Below are positions 29,917 to 36,716 of a stretch of 64,000 nucleotides of DNA, piece by piece. Within the stretch, counting starts at the first letter, position 1. Each line of letters opens with the position of its first letter. Where the stretch lies: NCBI RefSeq assembly GCF_028561275.1, contig NZ_JAQQTF010000019.1:248001-312000 (forward strand), written 5' to 3'. The notes below the pieces were generated by a model. That model was not told the DNA's origin and did not search any database. It was given only the letters and a program-made list of their open reading frames with translations. The stretch comes from Aureisphaera galaxeae. GTDB lineage: Bacteria > Bacteroidota > Bacteroidia > Flavobacteriales > Flavobacteriaceae. A program made the position numbers and the translations under genes.

Positions 29917-30990
29917 ATGAGATACCTTTTCCTATTCCTTTTTTTGATCCTTTTTTCACTTCCGATAGTTTCACAAACCTATACGGATACCCTGAAAGTA
30001 GCGTATACCCAAGCACCTCCGTTTATCATTCCGAATAAAGGAAACCTCGAAGGGGTCAACATCTGGTTATGGGAGCAAGTGGCCGAAGATTTGAACCTAT
30101 CCTACGAAATGGTTCCCATGAATTTTTCTGAAATGCTCGTCGCTTTGGAGAAAGGAGAGGTGGATGTTTGTATCAATCCCTTAACCATCACCAGTGAACG
30201 AAGTAGGGGGATGGATTTTACGCATTCTTTTTTCGCAAGTAATTCGACAATAGCCGTGGCGCGGAAAACCTCCCTTCGGAAGTTTTTGGATTTTCTAGGC
30301 GCATTTTTTAACGTGAACTTCCTTCGTGGACTGTTCATATTGCTTTTTATCATTTTCCTCTTCGGGACTTTGGCGTGGCTGTTCGAACGCAAGAAAAACC
30401 CTGATCATTTTCGGCATGGACCCAGAGGAATTTGGGATGGTGTTTGGTGGTCTGCCGTTACGTTAACTACCGTAGGATACGGAGACAAAGCTCCGAAATC
30501 GAAACGGGGGAAGGCTACCGCTTTACTGCTTATGTTTGGTGGTTTGCTTTTTATTTCTGGGTTAACAGCGAGTATTGCTTCCAGTCTCACGGTAAACGAA
30601 CTGAGCAATAATCCCGATGGATTTCACGAGTTTAAGGATGCCAAAGTAGGTACCATTGGCAATTCGGGTGCATATAACTTTTTGAAAGAGAATTTTTTCA
30701 AAGACGTGAGCACCTACAATGGATTGGTTCCAGGCCTTCGCGCCTTAAAGGATGGTGAGATTAAAGCCTTCATCTACGATGAACCCATTATGAAATACCG
30801 CATTCATACCGATCCCGAATTCAAAAAGATCGAATTGTTGCCCATTAAATTCGATGTTCAGTTTTATGCCTTTGCTTTTTCCCAAGACAAAGAAGAAGTA
30901 GAGAAGATTATTTCTCAAAAAATCCTCGAAATTATGGAGACGGCTGAATGGGAAATTGTGCTAAACGAATTTGGTCTTTCCGAGATATAA
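29917..30990 (+). CDS. GluR0-like ionotropic glutamate receptor/potassium channel
   Basis: A ligand-gated ion channel with a periplasmic amino-acid-binding domain. The 357-residue protein has a signal peptide (1-19) and binding lobe S1 (about 25-115) with LTITSERS at 89-96, whose R95 corresponds to the arginine that grips the ligand alpha-carboxylate in this family. Membrane helix M1 (about 132-153), a pore loop with TTVGYGD at 184-190 and M2 (about 198-220) follow. Lobe S2 (about 230-350) has YDEP at 277-280, whose Asp would contact the amino group. TVGYGD is the potassium selectivity filter, so K+ conduction is expected, as in GluR0 of Synechocystis. A plain solute-binding protein is excluded by the pore. 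The ligand is not proven. Confidence 0.85.
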   Translation: MRYLFLFLFLILFSLPIVSQTYTDTLKVAYTQAPPFIIPNKGNLEGVNIWLWEQVAEDLNLSYEMVPMNFSEMLVALEKGEVDVCINPLTITSERSRGMDFTHSFFASNSTIAVARKTSLRKFLDFLGAFFNVNFLRGLFILLFIIFLFGTLAWLFERKKNPDHFRHGPRGIWDGVWWSAVTLTTVGYGDKAPKSKRGKATALLLMFGGLLFISGLTASIASSLTVNELSNNPDGFHEFKDAKVGTIGNSGAYNFLKENFFKDVSTYNGLVPGLRALKDGEIKAFIYDEPIMKYRIHTDPEFKKIELLPIKFDVQFYAFAFSQDKEEVEKIISQKILEIMETAEWEIVLNEFGLSEI

Positions 30991-31082: not shown

Positions 31083-32762
31083 ATGACTAACTTATACGTC
31101 CAAGTTATTAATTCTGAGAAGAAACCACTAAACCACCCAATTATGTCCAAAGACCTTGTAGAAATTGCCAAGATCTCCCAACTCCAAGAAAAAGAACCTG
31201 CCCACGCCCTTGTTAGTAATACCGATTTAGTCATCATAAAATATGGTGATAGCGTTTCCGTACTGTACGGACGTTGCCTGCATCGCGGTGCTTTGCTATC
31301 CGATGGTTATGTTGATGGCCACAACCTGATTTGCGGTGTCCATCATTGGGATTATCGTTACGATACAGGAGTAAGTGAATATAATAATGAAGAAGCCCTG
31401 CATAAGTTTCAGGAATATACAGATGGCGATTCGTTATTGGTAGATCAAAACGATATCAAGGCTTTCGAAAAAGAACACCCACAACCCTTTAATCGCGATG
31501 AATATTTGGGGGCTTATGCCGATACCCATCCCGAAGATACAGAACCCTATACAGGTTATATAAAAGAGTTGGCGAAGAATGGTCTTTCCAAAATTGGCCA
31601 TCATGGGTTTTCGGCTTCCATGGGAGTCGATAGGAACACCTTGCCGAAATGGAACGATATTCAATTTTTACCAGCTCAATTATCTCGAAGGCCTTTATTG
31701 GATCATGAAGCAGTGGCTACCAAAGTGATTATTGGTCCATTGGCCAAAAAGCCGTTGGAATTGGATATTCCCCTTTTCGTAAGTGATATGAGTTTTGGGG
31801 CTTTGTCCCGTGAAGCCAAAATAGCACTATCTAAAGGAGCGGAAATGGCGGGTACGGGGATTTGTTCGGGAGAAGGAGGAATGCTACCACAGGAACAAGC
31901 GAACAATTCCAGGTATTTTTATGAATTGGCCTCGGCACAGTTTGGTTTCTCTTGGGACAAGTTGGAAAACGTACAAGCTTTCCATTTTAAAGGAGGTCAG
32001 GGAGCAAAGACAGGAACTGGAGGGCATTTGCCGGGGAATAAGGTGAGCAAAGAAATAGCTGAGGTACGTGGCTTGAATGAAGGAGAAAGTGCTATTTCAC
32101 CTGCGACCTTTCCAGACTTTCATGGCGTAGAAGATTTCAGAAAATTTGCTGAAGAAGTACGAGAACGCACTGGAGGCATTCCTATTGGTTTTAAGATCGC
32201 TGCAAGCCATATAGAAGAAGACATTCAATTTGCCTTAGATGTAGGCGTAGATTATATCATCCTCGACGGACGGGGAGGAGGAACGGGTTCTGCCCCTACC
32301 ATTCTTAGGGATAATATCAATGTACCTACCATTCCTGCTTTGGCCAGGGCTAGAAAATATTTGGATGAAGTAGGCGCTACCGACATTACATTGGTCATTA
32401 CGGGTGGATTGCGAATTGCAGAAGACTTTGCCAAGGCGATGATGTTGGGTGCCGATGCCATTGCTGTTTCCAATTCGGCAATCCAGGCTATTGGTTGTTT
32501 GGGAATGCGTGCTTGTGGCACCAACAATTGTCCCGTAGGGATTGCTACCCAAAAAGAATCGTTGCGAAGTAGACTTATTGTGGATTCATCGGCCAAGCAG
32601 TTGTACAATTATTTTACGGCTACCAATGATCTTATTAGGGTGATTGCAAGGGCCTGTGGTTACGATGATATTTCAAAATTCAACAAAGGGGATCTTTCCA
32701 CTTTCAATCAAGATATATATAAACTTACCGGTATAAAATACGCTGGGATAATCACAGACTGA
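31083..32762 (+). CDS. Rieske domain fused to glutamate-synthase-type FMN/[3Fe-4S] domain
   Basis: A 559-residue soluble redox enzyme with an unusual architecture. Residues about 25-130 form a Rieske [2Fe-2S] domain: C65-x-H67 in GRCLHRGALL and C84-x2-H87 in CGVHHWDY. Residues about 190-545 form a glutamate-synthase domain: FVSDMSFGALS near 232-242, KGGQGAKTGTGGHLPG near 303-318, DGRGGGTGSAP near 395-405, and an intact [3Fe-4S] motif C472-x5-C478-x4-C483 (GCLGMRACGTNNCPVG). There is no glutamine amidotransferase domain and no C-terminal beta-helix domain, so it is not normal GltB. It may make or oxidise an amino or N-alkylated acid using electrons from the Rieske centre; this is inference. 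The next gene starts two bases after its stop. A start at ATG 31143 is the alternative. Confidence 0.85.
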   Translation: MTNLYVQVINSEKKPLNHPIMSKDLVEIAKISQLQEKEPAHALVSNTDLVIIKYGDSVSVLYGRCLHRGALLSDGYVDGHNLICGVHHWDYRYDTGVSEYNNEEALHKFQEYTDGDSLLVDQNDIKAFEKEHPQPFNRDEYLGAYADTHPEDTEPYTGYIKELAKNGLSKIGHHGFSASMGVDRNTLPKWNDIQFLPAQLSRRPLLDHEAVATKVIIGPLAKKPLELDIPLFVSDMSFGALSREAKIALSKGAEMAGTGICSGEGGMLPQEQANNSRYFYELASAQFGFSWDKLENVQAFHFKGGQGAKTGTGGHLPGNKVSKEIAEVRGLNEGESAISPATFPDFHGVEDFRKFAEEVRERTGGIPIGFKIAASHIEEDIQFALDVGVDYIILDGRGGGTGSAPTILRDNINVPTIPALARARKYLDEVGATDITLVITGGLRIAEDFAKAMMLGADAIAVSNSAIQAIGCLGMRACGTNNCPVGIATQKESLRSRLIVDSSAKQLYNYFTATNDLIRVIARACGYDDISKFNKGDLSTFNQDIYKLTGIKYAGIITD

Positions 32763-32764
32763 CC

Positions 32765-33511
32765 ATGGAACAAATCATGCACAGGGCAGCGCAGTACTTA
32801 GCTACAGCGGCCATTAGCTTTTTGGAAAAGAAGGAAGACGACAGCCATACCAATCTAGGCTGGATCGATTCCCTTCCCGGATTGGTAACTCATCCCTTAA
32901 CTGCTGAAGGAGATATGCTAGCACTTAATTATGAAACCTTCTCTTTGGAATGGAGGAAAGGCGATAGCTCAATTCATACACTTTGGCTAGAAGGGAAGAC
33001 GCATGATGAAGTGATTGAGTGGATTGCCGAAATAAGCAAACAACAAGTCCTACAGAAGGCCTATGAATATGCACTTCACTACGATTTACCGTATCCGGTT
33101 ATCACAGACGATTACACCTATTCCATGGGTAATCCGGAACGATTGAAAGGACTGGTTCAGAATAGAACCCGAGTGAATCACGCCTTGGTCAGAACCTTGG
33201 CCGCCAATGGACTTACCTCCGATGTACGCATTTGGCCACATCACTTCGATTCTGGAGGGTTTGCCATGGCCAATGAAACTTTGGGGATAGGGCTCGGAAT
33301 GGCAGTACCCGATAGTATGATAGACGATTTTTATCTCTACGTAAGTGGATATCACGGCCATGATTTTGTAGATACCACCTCTTTCGAACCTTTGTCAACC
33401 GGAACTGTTTATTCTGAAGGATGGAAGGGAATTGCCCTTCCTGTGCAAGGACTGTCGGAAGAAGACATGCTTTCCTTTTTCAATGAAGCCATCTCTCGAT
33501 ATACCAATTGA
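32765..33511 (+). CDS. Conserved hypothetical protein of the Rieske-fusion operon
   Basis: I do not recognise this 248-residue soluble protein. It has no signal peptide or membrane segment. A notable cluster is VRIWPHHFDSGGFAM near 157-171, with two adjacent His and an Asp that could bind metal, followed by GMAVPDSMIDDFYLYVSGYHG near 178-198 with further Asp and His residues. The C-terminal half therefore looks like a possible metal-dependent active site. It starts two bases after the Rieske-glutamate-synthase gene and ends four bases before the antiporter gene, so it belongs to the operon and probably acts on the same substrate or small molecule. No known domain name is claimed. Confidence 0.7.
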   Translation: MEQIMHRAAQYLATAAISFLEKKEDDSHTNLGWIDSLPGLVTHPLTAEGDMLALNYETFSLEWRKGDSSIHTLWLEGKTHDEVIEWIAEISKQQVLQKAYEYALHYDLPYPVITDDYTYSMGNPERLKGLVQNRTRVNHALVRTLAANGLTSDVRIWPHHFDSGGFAMANETLGIGLGMAVPDSMIDDFYLYVSGYHGHDFVDTTSFEPLSTGTVYSEGWKGIALPVQGLSEEDMLSFFNEAISRYTN

Positions 33512-33515
33512 TGGA

Positions 33516-34751
33516 ATGGATACCTTTCAGCTTTTTATAGCAATTATTTCCCTAGCGGCTGTCTTCAGCATTATCAATAGAAAACTGCTGAAGTTACCCG
33601 ATACGATTGGCGTGATGCTATTGGCTATTCTCACTGCCGGAGGATTTGGGTTGTATTCCTTTGTGGATAAAGAAACCTTTATGAATGCCTGCCAATTGGT
33701 AGAGCAAATCGACTTCAAGGAGATCGTTTTCGATTTTTTACTGGGGTTTTTACTCTTTGCTGGAGCCATTCATGTAAATCTTACGGCACTGCTCAAGGAA
33801 CGCGGTCCGGTCATTATTTATGCATCCTTTGGTGTCTTAATATCTACACTTCTTATCGGAACTGCCCTTTATGGGATCGTTACCTTGCTTTCCTTGAATA
33901 TTAATTACCTGTATTGCTTGGTCTTTGGAGCTTTAATTTCACCTACGGATCCCGTGGCAGTATTGGCTTTGCTCAAAAAGGCAGGGGCCCCCAAAGATCT
34001 TGAGATTAAAATAGTGGGCGAATCCCTTTTTAATGATGGGGTGGGAATTGTGGTATTCTTGTCCATCTTCTCCCTCGCCACTATGATGGAAGAGTTTAGT
34101 ATGTCCCATATAGGATTGGAATTTTTGCAAGAAGCTGGAGGTGGTTTGGCAATGGGAGCGTTGTTAGGGTATGTGGGAAGTCGACTTATTCAGAACTTAA
34201 GGAAACAGCCTATCCTAGCCGTTCATGTATCCTTGGCGATTGTCATGGGCGGATACAGTCTATCCTCCCTTTTACATGTATCTGGTGCTTTGGCCATGGT
34301 GATGGCCGGTCTCATGGTTGGCAATACCTTGCGAAAGGAATCGGCCTGCAAAGAACTGCAAGTACATATGAATGTATTCTGGAAAGTGATCGATGAAATC
34401 CTCAATTCGGTACTCTTTGTACTCATAGGGGTCGAAATCATTGCATTAGACTTCAATCTTAACTATCTTATTGTCGGATTATTGGCCATTGTAATAGTGC
34501 TCGTTTCCCGATTTATTTCGGTGGTGATGGCGAATGTTTTCCTAAGAAAGGAGCATCGATCCGATCTAATGCAGATGTACATACTTACTTGGGCGGGATT
34601 GCGTGGCGGTATTTCCATAGCCTTGGCCTTGAGCTTGCCCGAAGGAGAGATACGGGATGCTTTATTATTTACAACGTACGTGGTGGTGGTCTTTTCCATT
34701 ATTGTGCAAGGGTTGACCATAGAAAGACTCATTCTAAAACTGTTGAAATAA
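33516..34751 (+). CDS. CPA1-family Na+/H+ antiporter (NhaP/NhaK type)
   Basis: A 411-residue cation/proton antiporter of the inner membrane with twelve or so helices. ISPTDPVAVLALLKKAGAP near 134-152 and GESLFNDGVGIVVF near 162-175 are the CPA1 signatures, including the ND pair in the ion-binding helix; LTWAGLRGGISIALALSLP near 357-375 is the conserved late helix. Family length is usual; no C-terminal regulatory domain follows. I chose ATG 33516, four bases after the preceding stop, because an earlier in-frame ATG at 33432 adds a cysteine-rich segment that lies inside the previous gene. Its place between two Rieske-fusion enzymes suggests pH or sodium homeostasis tied to them, by context only. 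Confidence 0.87.
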   Translation: MDTFQLFIAIISLAAVFSIINRKLLKLPDTIGVMLLAILTAGGFGLYSFVDKETFMNACQLVEQIDFKEIVFDFLLGFLLFAGAIHVNLTALLKERGPVIIYASFGVLISTLLIGTALYGIVTLLSLNINYLYCLVFGALISPTDPVAVLALLKKAGAPKDLEIKIVGESLFNDGVGIVVFLSIFSLATMMEEFSMSHIGLEFLQEAGGGLAMGALLGYVGSRLIQNLRKQPILAVHVSLAIVMGGYSLSSLLHVSGALAMVMAGLMVGNTLRKESACKELQVHMNVFWKVIDEILNSVLFVLIGVEIIALDFNLNYLIVGLLAIVIVLVSRFISVVMANVFLRKEHRSDLMQMYILTWAGLRGGISIALALSLPEGEIRDALLFTTYVVVVFSIIVQGLTIERLILKLLK

Positions 34752-34763
34752 AAATCAATTAAT

Positions 34764-36716
34764 ATGGGGGAAAAGAAGAAAGTTTGGTACAAAGTACTCA
34801 GTAATAAGAAAGACCTTCCTGAGGGAAGGGTCAAGACCGTTACAGCCGCCCATCAAGGAATCTGCCTCACGCATTTCGAAGGAAAATTTTCGGCGCTCGA
34901 TAATAAATGTCCTCATCAAGGTGGCCCCCTGGGCGAGGGATCTATAGAAAATGGAATGTTGCGTTGTCCGTGGCATGGTTGGGATTTTCATCCTTGTACA
35001 GGATTGCCTCCGGGAGGATATGACGATGGTGTAAAGACCTTCGAAGTAAAAGAAGAAGGCGATGCTGTATACGTTGCTTTGGAAGAAGAAGCGCCACACG
35101 TAGACACCATTTCGGATGTCATGATGGAAACTATGGTCAATTGGGGTGTGGATACGGTCTTCGGAATGGTGGGCCACAGTAATTTAGGAGTGGCCGATGC
35201 CATGCGCAGGCTAGAAGAAAAAGGAAAACTTCAGTACTTCGGAATAAGACATGAAGGAGCCGCTGCTTTTGCGGCTTCAGGCTACGCTAAACTTACTGGA
35301 AAGCCAGCCGTTTGTTTTGGGATTGCAGGACCCGGAGCCACCAATATGTTTACGGGCATGTGGGATGCCAAAGTGGATCGTGTTCCCCTATTGGCACTTT
35401 CTGGACAGGTAGATACCCATGTGTTGGGAACGGGTGCTTTTCAGGAAGTGGACTTGGTGAAAGCCTTTCAGACAGTGGCCGATTTCAATCATGCGGTTCA
35501 GGAGCATTCCCGTCATAGCGAATTGATGTCTTTGGCTATAAAACATGCCTTGGTGAAAAGGGATGTTTCCCACATCACCTTTCCCGATGAGGTGGCTTTT
35601 ACTCCTAAGCGTACATGGGAAAAACCAAAGACTCCAGAAAATAGAATTACCCCAATGAATATCGCACCGCCTCAGCAAATGCTGGATAAAGCGATACAAA
35701 TGATTTTGAAAGCCAAGCGACCAGCGATTATAGTAGGTCACGGAGCGCGATTCCATATGGAAGCCATCATTTCGTTTGCACAAAAAATGAATTGTCCGGT
35801 CATTACGACATTCAAAGGAAAAGGCCTTATTCCCGATGCCCACGAATTGGGCTGTGGAGTACTGGGTAGGAGTGGAACCCCAATTGCTTCCTGGTTTATG
35901 AACGAAAGTGATTTATTAATCGTCTTCGGAGCTTCCTTCTCCAATCACACTGGAATCACTCCCAAGAAACCCATTATACAAGTGGATTTCGACCCTATGG
36001 CATTGAGTAAGTTCCATAAAGTAGATGCCGCACTTTGGGGTGAGATTTCAGAAACATTACATAGAATTGAAGCTGCCACGAATGGGAAGTTGGACACCAT
36101 TGATCAAAGGGACGAAATTGCAAATCGTTGGAGCATTTGGAAGGCAGAAAAGGAAAGTCGACTTAAAGATCAAGGGGAGGATGGAATTAGTTCCATCGCT
36201 GTGTTCGACGTTATGAATCGGGTAACCCCAGAAAACGCTGTCATTGCTGTCGATGTAGGGAACAATACCTATTCCTTTGGGCGCTATTTCGAACCCAAAC
36301 ACCAATCCATTATTATGTCTGGTTATCTGGGCTCCATCGGATTTGCCTTACCTGCTGCCATGGGAGCGTGGGCAGCTCAAGGAAAGGAGCGACCTATTTG
36401 GTCTGTTTCGGGAGATGGAGGCATGGGGCAATATTTAGGAGAATGGATGACCTTGGTGAAATACAATATGAACATCAAACACGTGCTCTTGAACAATTCA
36501 GAATTGGGTAAAATCTCGAAAGAACAACGCGGTGCTGAACTAGATGTTTGGCAAACCAGCTTACACAATCCCAATTTTGCCGATTTCGCCAATAATTGTG
36601 GCGCATTGGGAATCCGAGTGGAAGATGTTGCCGATTTGGAAGCCGCTATGATCCGATTACGGGATCATGATGGACCAGCGCTGCTGGATATTGTTTGTGA
36701 TGTTAACCTTATCTAG
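34764..36716 (+). CDS. Rieske domain fused to pyruvate-oxidase-like thiamine-diphosphate enzyme
   Basis: A 650-residue fusion protein. Residues about 7-107 form a Rieske [2Fe-2S] domain (C49-x-H51 in NKCPHQGGPLG, C68-x2-H71 in RCPWHGWDFHP). Residues about 112-650 form a complete ThDP enzyme of the pyruvate oxidase/acetohydroxyacid synthase superfamily. E164 in IRHEGAAAFAASGYAKLTGK activates the cofactor, GPGATNMFTGMWDAK lies near 189-203, a central domain covers about 300-435, and the ThDP motif GDGGMGQYLGE starts near 550 with the NN at 577-578. FQEVDLVKAF near 226-235 favours the pyruvate oxidase branch. A Rieske centre could pass electrons from 2-keto acid decarboxylation to a carrier; this is inference. 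It starts 12 bases after the antiporter gene. Confidence 0.88.
   Translation: MGEKKKVWYKVLSNKKDLPEGRVKTVTAAHQGICLTHFEGKFSALDNKCPHQGGPLGEGSIENGMLRCPWHGWDFHPCTGLPPGGYDDGVKTFEVKEEGDAVYVALEEEAPHVDTISDVMMETMVNWGVDTVFGMVGHSNLGVADAMRRLEEKGKLQYFGIRHEGAAAFAASGYAKLTGKPAVCFGIAGPGATNMFTGMWDAKVDRVPLLALSGQVDTHVLGTGAFQEVDLVKAFQTVADFNHAVQEHSRHSELMSLAIKHALVKRDVSHITFPDEVAFTPKRTWEKPKTPENRITPMNIAPPQQMLDKAIQMILKAKRPAIIVGHGARFHMEAIISFAQKMNCPVITTFKGKGLIPDAHELGCGVLGRSGTPIASWFMNESDLLIVFGASFSNHTGITPKKPIIQVDFDPMALSKFHKVDAALWGEISETLHRIEAATNGKLDTIDQRDEIANRWSIWKAEKESRLKDQGEDGISSIAVFDVMNRVTPENAVIAVDVGNNTYSFGRYFEPKHQSIIMSGYLGSIGFALPAAMGAWAAQGKERPIWSVSGDGGMGQYLGEWMTLVKYNMNIKHVLLNNSELGKISKEQRGAELDVWQTSLHNPNFADFANNCGALGIRVEDVADLEAAMIRLRDHDGPALLDIVCDVNLI

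Follow-up and report, generated by a model that had tools for sequence, protein, structure and literature searches.

Two Rieske-fused enzymes form a conserved gene pair with an exchangeable flavoprotein in Aureisphaera galaxeae: a possible keto-acid-fed redox module beside cation transporters

In a 64,000-nucleotide stretch of the Aureisphaera galaxeae genome (contig NZ_JAQQTF010000019.1, positions 248,001 to 312,000 of the forward strand; hereafter the window), four closely spaced genes, designated A to D, encode two different Rieske-fused enzymes, an orphan protein and an antiporter, and a predicted K+-channel gene, E, lies upstream of them. Counted from the first nucleotide of the window, the genes and their recognizable parts are:

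29917-30990, + strand: gene E, ligand-gated K+ channel of the prokaryotic glutamate-receptor type; SBP_bac_3 split by Ion_trans_2, filter TVGYGD (Pfam)
31083-32762 (open reading frame), + strand: gene A, Rieske [2Fe-2S] domain plus flavin mononucleotide (FMN)/[3Fe-4S] glutamate-synthase-like domain (Pfam Rieske and Glu_synthase)
31158-31379, + strand: Rieske domain of A, with C65, H67, C84 and H87
32496-32531, + strand: [3Fe-4S] cysteine motif of A, C472-x5-C478-x4-C483
32765-33511, + strand: gene B, orphan family, 248 amino acids; usual neighbour of A or of the flavoprotein c24
33516-34751, + strand: gene C, CPA1-type Na+/H+ exchanger family protein (Pfam Na_H_Exchanger)
34764-36716, + strand: gene D, Rieske [2Fe-2S] domain plus pyruvate-oxidase-like thiamine diphosphate (ThDP) enzyme (Pfam Rieske and TPP_enzyme N/M/C)
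34785-35003, + strand: Rieske domain of D, with C49, H51, C68 and H71
36411-36419, + strand: ThDP GDG motif of D, residues 550-552

The operon as described by a first-pass annotation of this DNA is confirmed: the reading frames and Pfam domains of A, B, C and D agree with it, the gaps A-B, B-C and C-D are 2, 4 and 12 bases, and the residues it had named in A and D (Rieske ligands, [3Fe-4S] cysteines, E164 and GDG 550) are found at those positions. Its account of the neighbourhood held for the four + strand genes and overlooked E. Since the longest A frame extends about 20 residues beyond the start of most relatives, which begin near its residues 21-23, the true start of A is likely at 31143, and the residue numbers of A would then be 20 lower. 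The host genome (G000) is 4.59 Mb in size and 99.88% complete, and the closest named relatives of B are from Flavobacteriaceae. Promoter and terminator scans of the locus gave counts close to or under those of shuffled controls.

The first-pass annotation had also proposed that A and D are functionally linked, and our surveys support them as a genuine conserved pair whose distribution is shared and whose genes mostly lie close together. In a family sample of 299 genomes, not chosen by B, D was found in 27 and A in 39 (threshold for both, E <= 1e-100). Of the 27 D genomes, 21 also have A, invariably on the contig that holds D, with gaps of 169-8961 bases that do not exceed 2489 bases in 20 of them; the hypergeometric P value of this co-occurrence is approximately 1e-16, not corrected for phylogeny. 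One of these 21 genomes (G412) has A broken into three frames, and three of the 39 A matches (G316, G507 and G548, aligned from about query residue 146-153) have no Rieske part. In a phylum sample of 247 genomes, D was present in 7 and A in 41; six of the seven D genomes have both, and A and D are linked in three of these six, G115, G126 and the window genome. A search of 72,556 plasmid records found full-length A (56-59% identity) together with D (57-58%) on three plasmids of haloarchaea. On the one from Halorarius halobius, D is followed by a Na+/H+ exchanger, a K+-channel protein encoded on the other strand, two small genes and finally A; on that of Salinirubellus a single gene separates D from A. 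A Mycobacteroides abscessus plasmid holds D (52.5% identity) near an exchanger and a c24-like flavoprotein. In a set of loci collected through B (the best 80 of 252 stretches with B relatives, all Bacteroidota by their titles) together with the window, clustering of open reading frames placed A in 54 of 81, C in 48 and D in 45. Mirror-tree correlations among A, B, C and D were 0.60-0.79 in 26 loci and unspecific.

A repeated feature of this neighbourhood is the exchange of A for an FMN_red-family protein, c24. All six D genomes of the family sample that lack A carry c24 (86-91% identity to the query), and at a threshold of 84% identity or more c24 is present in 12 of the 299 genomes, none of which is among the 39 with A. 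The 27 D genomes thus divide into 21 with A, six with c24, none with both and none with neither (Fisher test by genome, 3.4e-6, not corrected for phylogeny), which makes a redox coupling of the two fusions, A and D, plausible. Across 112 B- or D-bearing loci, 78 contain A only, 18 c24 only, none both and 16 neither; several of the last stop at the end of a contig or locus, and a few genomes are represented twice, by two locus identifiers. Thirteen of the 18 c24 loci have c24 on the strand of B and upstream of it, separated by no more than one gene, which is the slot where A otherwise sits. On the D tree the A/c24 state switches 11 times, at least seven of them on supported branches; after removal of two doubtful rows and four duplicates, nine switches remain, at least six on supported branches. 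Rows without a visible A or c24 were dropped from these trees, namely L068, L091, L102 (cut off before A) and L116 (plasmid only), and, given the dropped rows, we used the switch count alone, the sign test not being independent evidence. The sole PDB match of c24 at E <= 0.01 is a protein deposited under the name BRAMP domain protein (5mji/5mld), for which neither a function nor a ThDP/Rieske system that includes it was found in the literature searched.

Protein D contains the complete TPP_enzyme N, M and C set with the catalytic Glu and the GDG motif, and its Rieske ligands, E164 and a GKI-x-KEQ motif are invariant in 75 D proteins, haloarchaeal copies included. The closest PDB structure is Escherichia coli pyruvate oxidase PoxB (3ey9/3eya), with the full ThDP fold, to which D adds an N-terminal Rieske domain. 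The best NCBIfam model is likewise a pyruvate oxidase, PRK08611, but D falls under the equivalog cut-offs (390.7 bits against 742 for PRK08611 and 302.3 against 792 for PRK09124). The Phe of the PoxB 'LGFV' stretch, which we take to line the pyruvate site, aligns with Lys583 of D, a residue invariant in all 75 rows, and the tail of PoxB is missing from D, the alignment ending at PoxB residue 527 of 572. Because an invariant Lys replaces this Phe and the scores stay under the pyruvate-oxidase cut-offs, D may use a substrate other than pyruvate. Flavin adenine dinucleotide is a predicted cofactor of D, by similarity to pyruvate oxidases.

In protein A, the Rieske ligands (C-x-H ... C-x2-H) and the three [3Fe-4S] cysteines are invariant in 81 A proteins, again including the haloarchaeal copies. 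Its Glu_synthase domain (PF01645, E 9.7e-88) corresponds to the GltB FMN domain of ferredoxin/NADPH-dependent glutamate synthase (GltS), with which it shares the C-x5-C-x4-C motif, and its top PDB matches are 7mfm, 2vdc, 1ea0, 6s6s and 1llw. A differs from GltS in its N-terminal Rieske domain, in its exchange for FMN_red proteins and in the lack of a detectable GATase_2 (class II glutaminase) domain or subunit: Pfam recognizes only Glu_synthase-type and Rieske domains in A, with no amidotransferase domain, and GATase_2 gave no match in the window genome while 12 of 14 control genomes matched. N-methylglutamate synthase (MgsABC) is described as resembling an FMN-binding glutamate synthase protein together with a glutamine amidotransferase (PMC6237917), and no amidotransferase-like subunit of the GATase_2 type was detected here. 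A role of A as a glutamate synthase or N-methylglutamate synthase was hence rejected, since either would have to work without its partner. Most likely, A is a reductase or an electron-transfer flavoprotein rather than a glutamate synthase. For the carrier that the first-pass annotation had placed between D and A, the window genome offers no stand-alone Rieske ferredoxin: besides A and D, PF00355 matches there only a third protein, of 362 residues, which looks like a Rieske oxygenase from its sequence; other ferredoxins were not searched.

B, the gene between A and C, matches no Pfam family, and its AlphaFold2 model (mean predicted local distance difference test, pLDDT, 94.6) has no significant PDB match in Foldseek; the C-terminal half reached a VIA Z score of at most 7.7, inside the noise range of that tool, and a cyanobacterial relative touches DUF5996 at E 0.0064, weaker than the cut-off. 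In C, the Na_H_Exchanger domain covers most of the length (E 5e-63), and the score lies under the NCBIfam equivalog cut-offs (155 of 279.6 bits). C belongs to the CPA1-type antiporter family, with Na+ as the putative transported ion. It is present in 38 of the 44 B loci that have D and in 9 of the 36 that lack it, so it goes preferentially with D without being tied to it. In the family sample, C was found in 15 of 21 stretches with A and D versus none of 18 with A alone, several of these stretches being short.

E shares with GluR0-type K+ channels an SBP_bac_3 domain split around a pore with the TVGYGD filter, and its PDB matches include Slr1257 and a bacterial ionotropic glutamate receptor homologue. 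When 122 loci with A were examined, E was the gene immediately before A in three genomes from the genus of the window (the window, L033 and L295) and also in a distant family, f31, in two of 12 fetched A loci (L213 and L277; genomes G101 and G074), at 76-79 bases and 37-38% identity. An open reading frame with the K+-channel filter motif occurs in 12 of the 80 B loci; 11 of these are members of one cluster, c29, and all 11 have D.

Many D loci further contain c7, a membrane protein whose Ferric_reduct/MsrQ-like part is joined to a Rieske domain at the C-terminus. Its membrane part matches the models of MsrQ, the haem subunit of methionine-sulfoxide reductase, and of Ferric_reduct; c7 differs from MsrQ by the added Rieske domain and by its place in D loci. 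It was found in 16 of the 299 family genomes, 15 of them with D (15 of the 27 D genomes), and the sixteenth, G001, retains A, B and the c7 module together with an 85-residue remnant of D (L072 10758-11012). The small membrane genes c14 and c6 and the gene c8 accompany c7; the window genome has no c7. The c8 protein (L081 14784-15578) has one N-terminal helix and a conserved KCYFGVMKPG-x-GKIHRSCA-x2-CISGG-x-PP stretch, with no Pfam or NCBIfam match and a predicted structure of mean pLDDT 65.6. The module c14-c6-c7-c8 exists outside Bacteroidota as well: a Rhizobium plasmid (NZ_CP104042, L267 5899-8856) carries a short-chain dehydrogenase/reductase gene followed by c14-, c6- (weak), c7- and c8-like genes, and a Rieske-free ThDP enzyme gene and an OpgC-type gene lie nearby.

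Taken together, we tentatively read the operon as a keto-acid-fed redox module with interchangeable FMN partners that is tied to cation transport and does not serve glutamate synthesis; we consider this possible, and no more than that. D would oxidatively decarboxylate a 2-oxo acid by means of ThDP and a flavin and pass the electrons to its own Rieske cluster. The FMN partner, A or the unrelated c24, which replace one another at the loci, would accept or supply electrons by direct transfer. Where c7 and its small partners accompany D, they could provide a second exit for its electrons through the membrane, and the adjacent antiporter C and K+ channels (c29, E) might balance the protons and charge left by electron transfer. 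The setting is weakly suggested to be accessory redox and ion stress tolerance. In its fullest form, the proposal is that of a hitherto undescribed two-component oxidoreductase common to Bacteroidota and haloarchaea: a keto-acid oxidase fused to a Rieske domain would pair with one or the other of two unrelated FMN proteins, optionally with a membrane Rieske-haem b complex (c14-c6-c7-c8), charge and pH being balanced by K+ channels and a Na+/H+ antiporter; this complete assembly we regard as rather doubtful.

Several observations weigh against this reading. A often occurs where D is absent (in 18 of its 39 family genomes and 35 of its 41 phylum genomes) and hence has a D-independent job, and the electron route from D to A drawn by the first-pass annotation is not obligatory. 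A and D are on separate contigs in three phylum genomes (G213, G220 and G276) and about 17 kb apart on a Halorubrum plasmid, while a Haloferax larsenii plasmid encodes D (55.5% identity) with no A match on that plasmid, and the P values of the association ignore phylogeny. In G509, c24 and D lie on different contigs. A c24 paralogue (about 50% identity) is present together with A in six A genomes (G019, G329, G342, G460, G498 and G507), so the exclusivity of A and c24 is limited to the c24-proper clade; on the c24 tree, the c24-like proteins of Mycobacteroides and G166 group on the side of the paralogue, G166 being the sole phylum genome with D and no A, with only a wider-family c24 copy on another contig. 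The rule that c7 goes with D holds only in the family sample: c7 lies beside A with no D found in G037 (L238) and G228 (L219), and an exclusive association was rejected on these grounds. Likewise, nine loci and G037 hold C beside A and B without D, and the idea that the antiporter is tied to D and never to A was rejected, given the D-less B loci that have C. A also keeps a Lys and an Arg where GltS has K-x5-Q...R, residues that presumably serve 2-oxoglutarate in GltS, so binding of this keto acid by A is possible. Finally, the stress setting is drawn from annotation names, and the substrate of D, the direction of electron flow and the cofactors are predictions.

Three other explanations have to be weighed against the redox module. 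In the redox-gated alternative, A or c24 would mainly act as a redox sensor or activator of the antiporter and K+ channels, guarding against electrophiles or oxidants in the way that KefF acts on KefC. In Flavobacteriaceae and on the Halorarius plasmid, FMN oxidoreductases do have exchangers and K+ channels in their vicinity, and the Mycobacteroides plasmid has an exchanger near its FMN oxidoreductase; A, B and C occur without D in nine loci, and peroxiredoxin, pirin, DsrE and merA-type reductases are found near the haloarchaeal copies. We nevertheless judge this explanation unlikely, as no antiporter was present in the fetched stretches of 24 of the 39 A genomes (several of which are short), C is commoner with D than without, and complete catalytic motifs argue for turnover. 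The genes could also be independent stress genes that share a mobile island and are functionally uncoupled. The modular mosaic of the locus, in which the D of the window resembles the Aquimarina type and its C the Winogradskyella type, speaks for this, as do the plasmid location in archaea, the three phylum genomes with A and D on different contigs and the occurrence of c7 and C without D. An uncoupled island is quite unlikely in our view, because each of the 27 family D genomes has A or c24 and at least six to seven A/c24 exchanges map onto the D tree.

The pathway originally proposed for the operon, in which D frees keto-acid electrons and A spends them on reductive amination to glutamate or an N-substituted amino acid, draws on the retained GltS signature of A (FMN, [3Fe-4S]), on the tight linkage of A with D and on the glutamate-receptor type of the neighbouring channel E, whose ligand the amino-acid product could be. 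We consider it improbable: the nearly complete genome has no GATase_2, A has no amidotransferase domain, an FMN_red flavoprotein repeatedly takes its place, and nearly half of the family A genomes have no D. On the same grounds of domain content and replacement, the broader notion of an FMN enzyme making or breaking an amino or N-substituted acid is not supported.

Other neighbours vary among the loci. In two Winogradskyella loci, a nucleotide cyclase fused to a 2Fe-2S ferredoxin domain lies between C and D (L051 11982-12896, assigned by Pfam; L063 11981-12901, assigned by membership of the same cluster). NAD(P)H-hydrate epimerase genes (YjeF_N) recur: they sit beside B or D in Maribacter and Zobellia, and haloarchaea have them near D or A (e.g., L034 10737-11390, L116 15098-15829 and L115 10753-11493). 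Genes for an FMN reductase and an NAD(P)H-hydrate epimerase come after a distant B relative on an Acaryochloris plasmid (L270 6962-9212), an arrangement that echoes the B-c24 and YjeF_N neighbourhoods. In Flagellimonas (L068 11120-17560), the D module adjoins a conserved run of TANGO2/NRDE, LysE-type, secreted YHS-domain and weak ATP-grasp genes. PADLOC returned no match for A, B, C, D, c24 or c7 at E <= 0.001, and a phage-defence role was rejected; only c10 matches, to PycTM, and it is a neighbour of some loci.

We herein describe a conserved neighbourhood of two Rieske fusions that spans two domains of life. No description of the A-D pair, of either fusion or of the membrane protein was found in the literature searched, which left out most subscription journals; the parts come from known families (keto-acid oxidase and FMN oxidoreductase), and there is a real chance that the assembled system is new. 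The repeated exchange of A and c24 offers a testable handle on the job of the widespread 'FMN-binding glutamate synthase-like' proteins. If our reading is true, many genes annotated as glutamate synthase-related or ThDP-binding would need renaming, and the operon would represent a new way of passing keto-acid electrons into flavoproteins and membranes.

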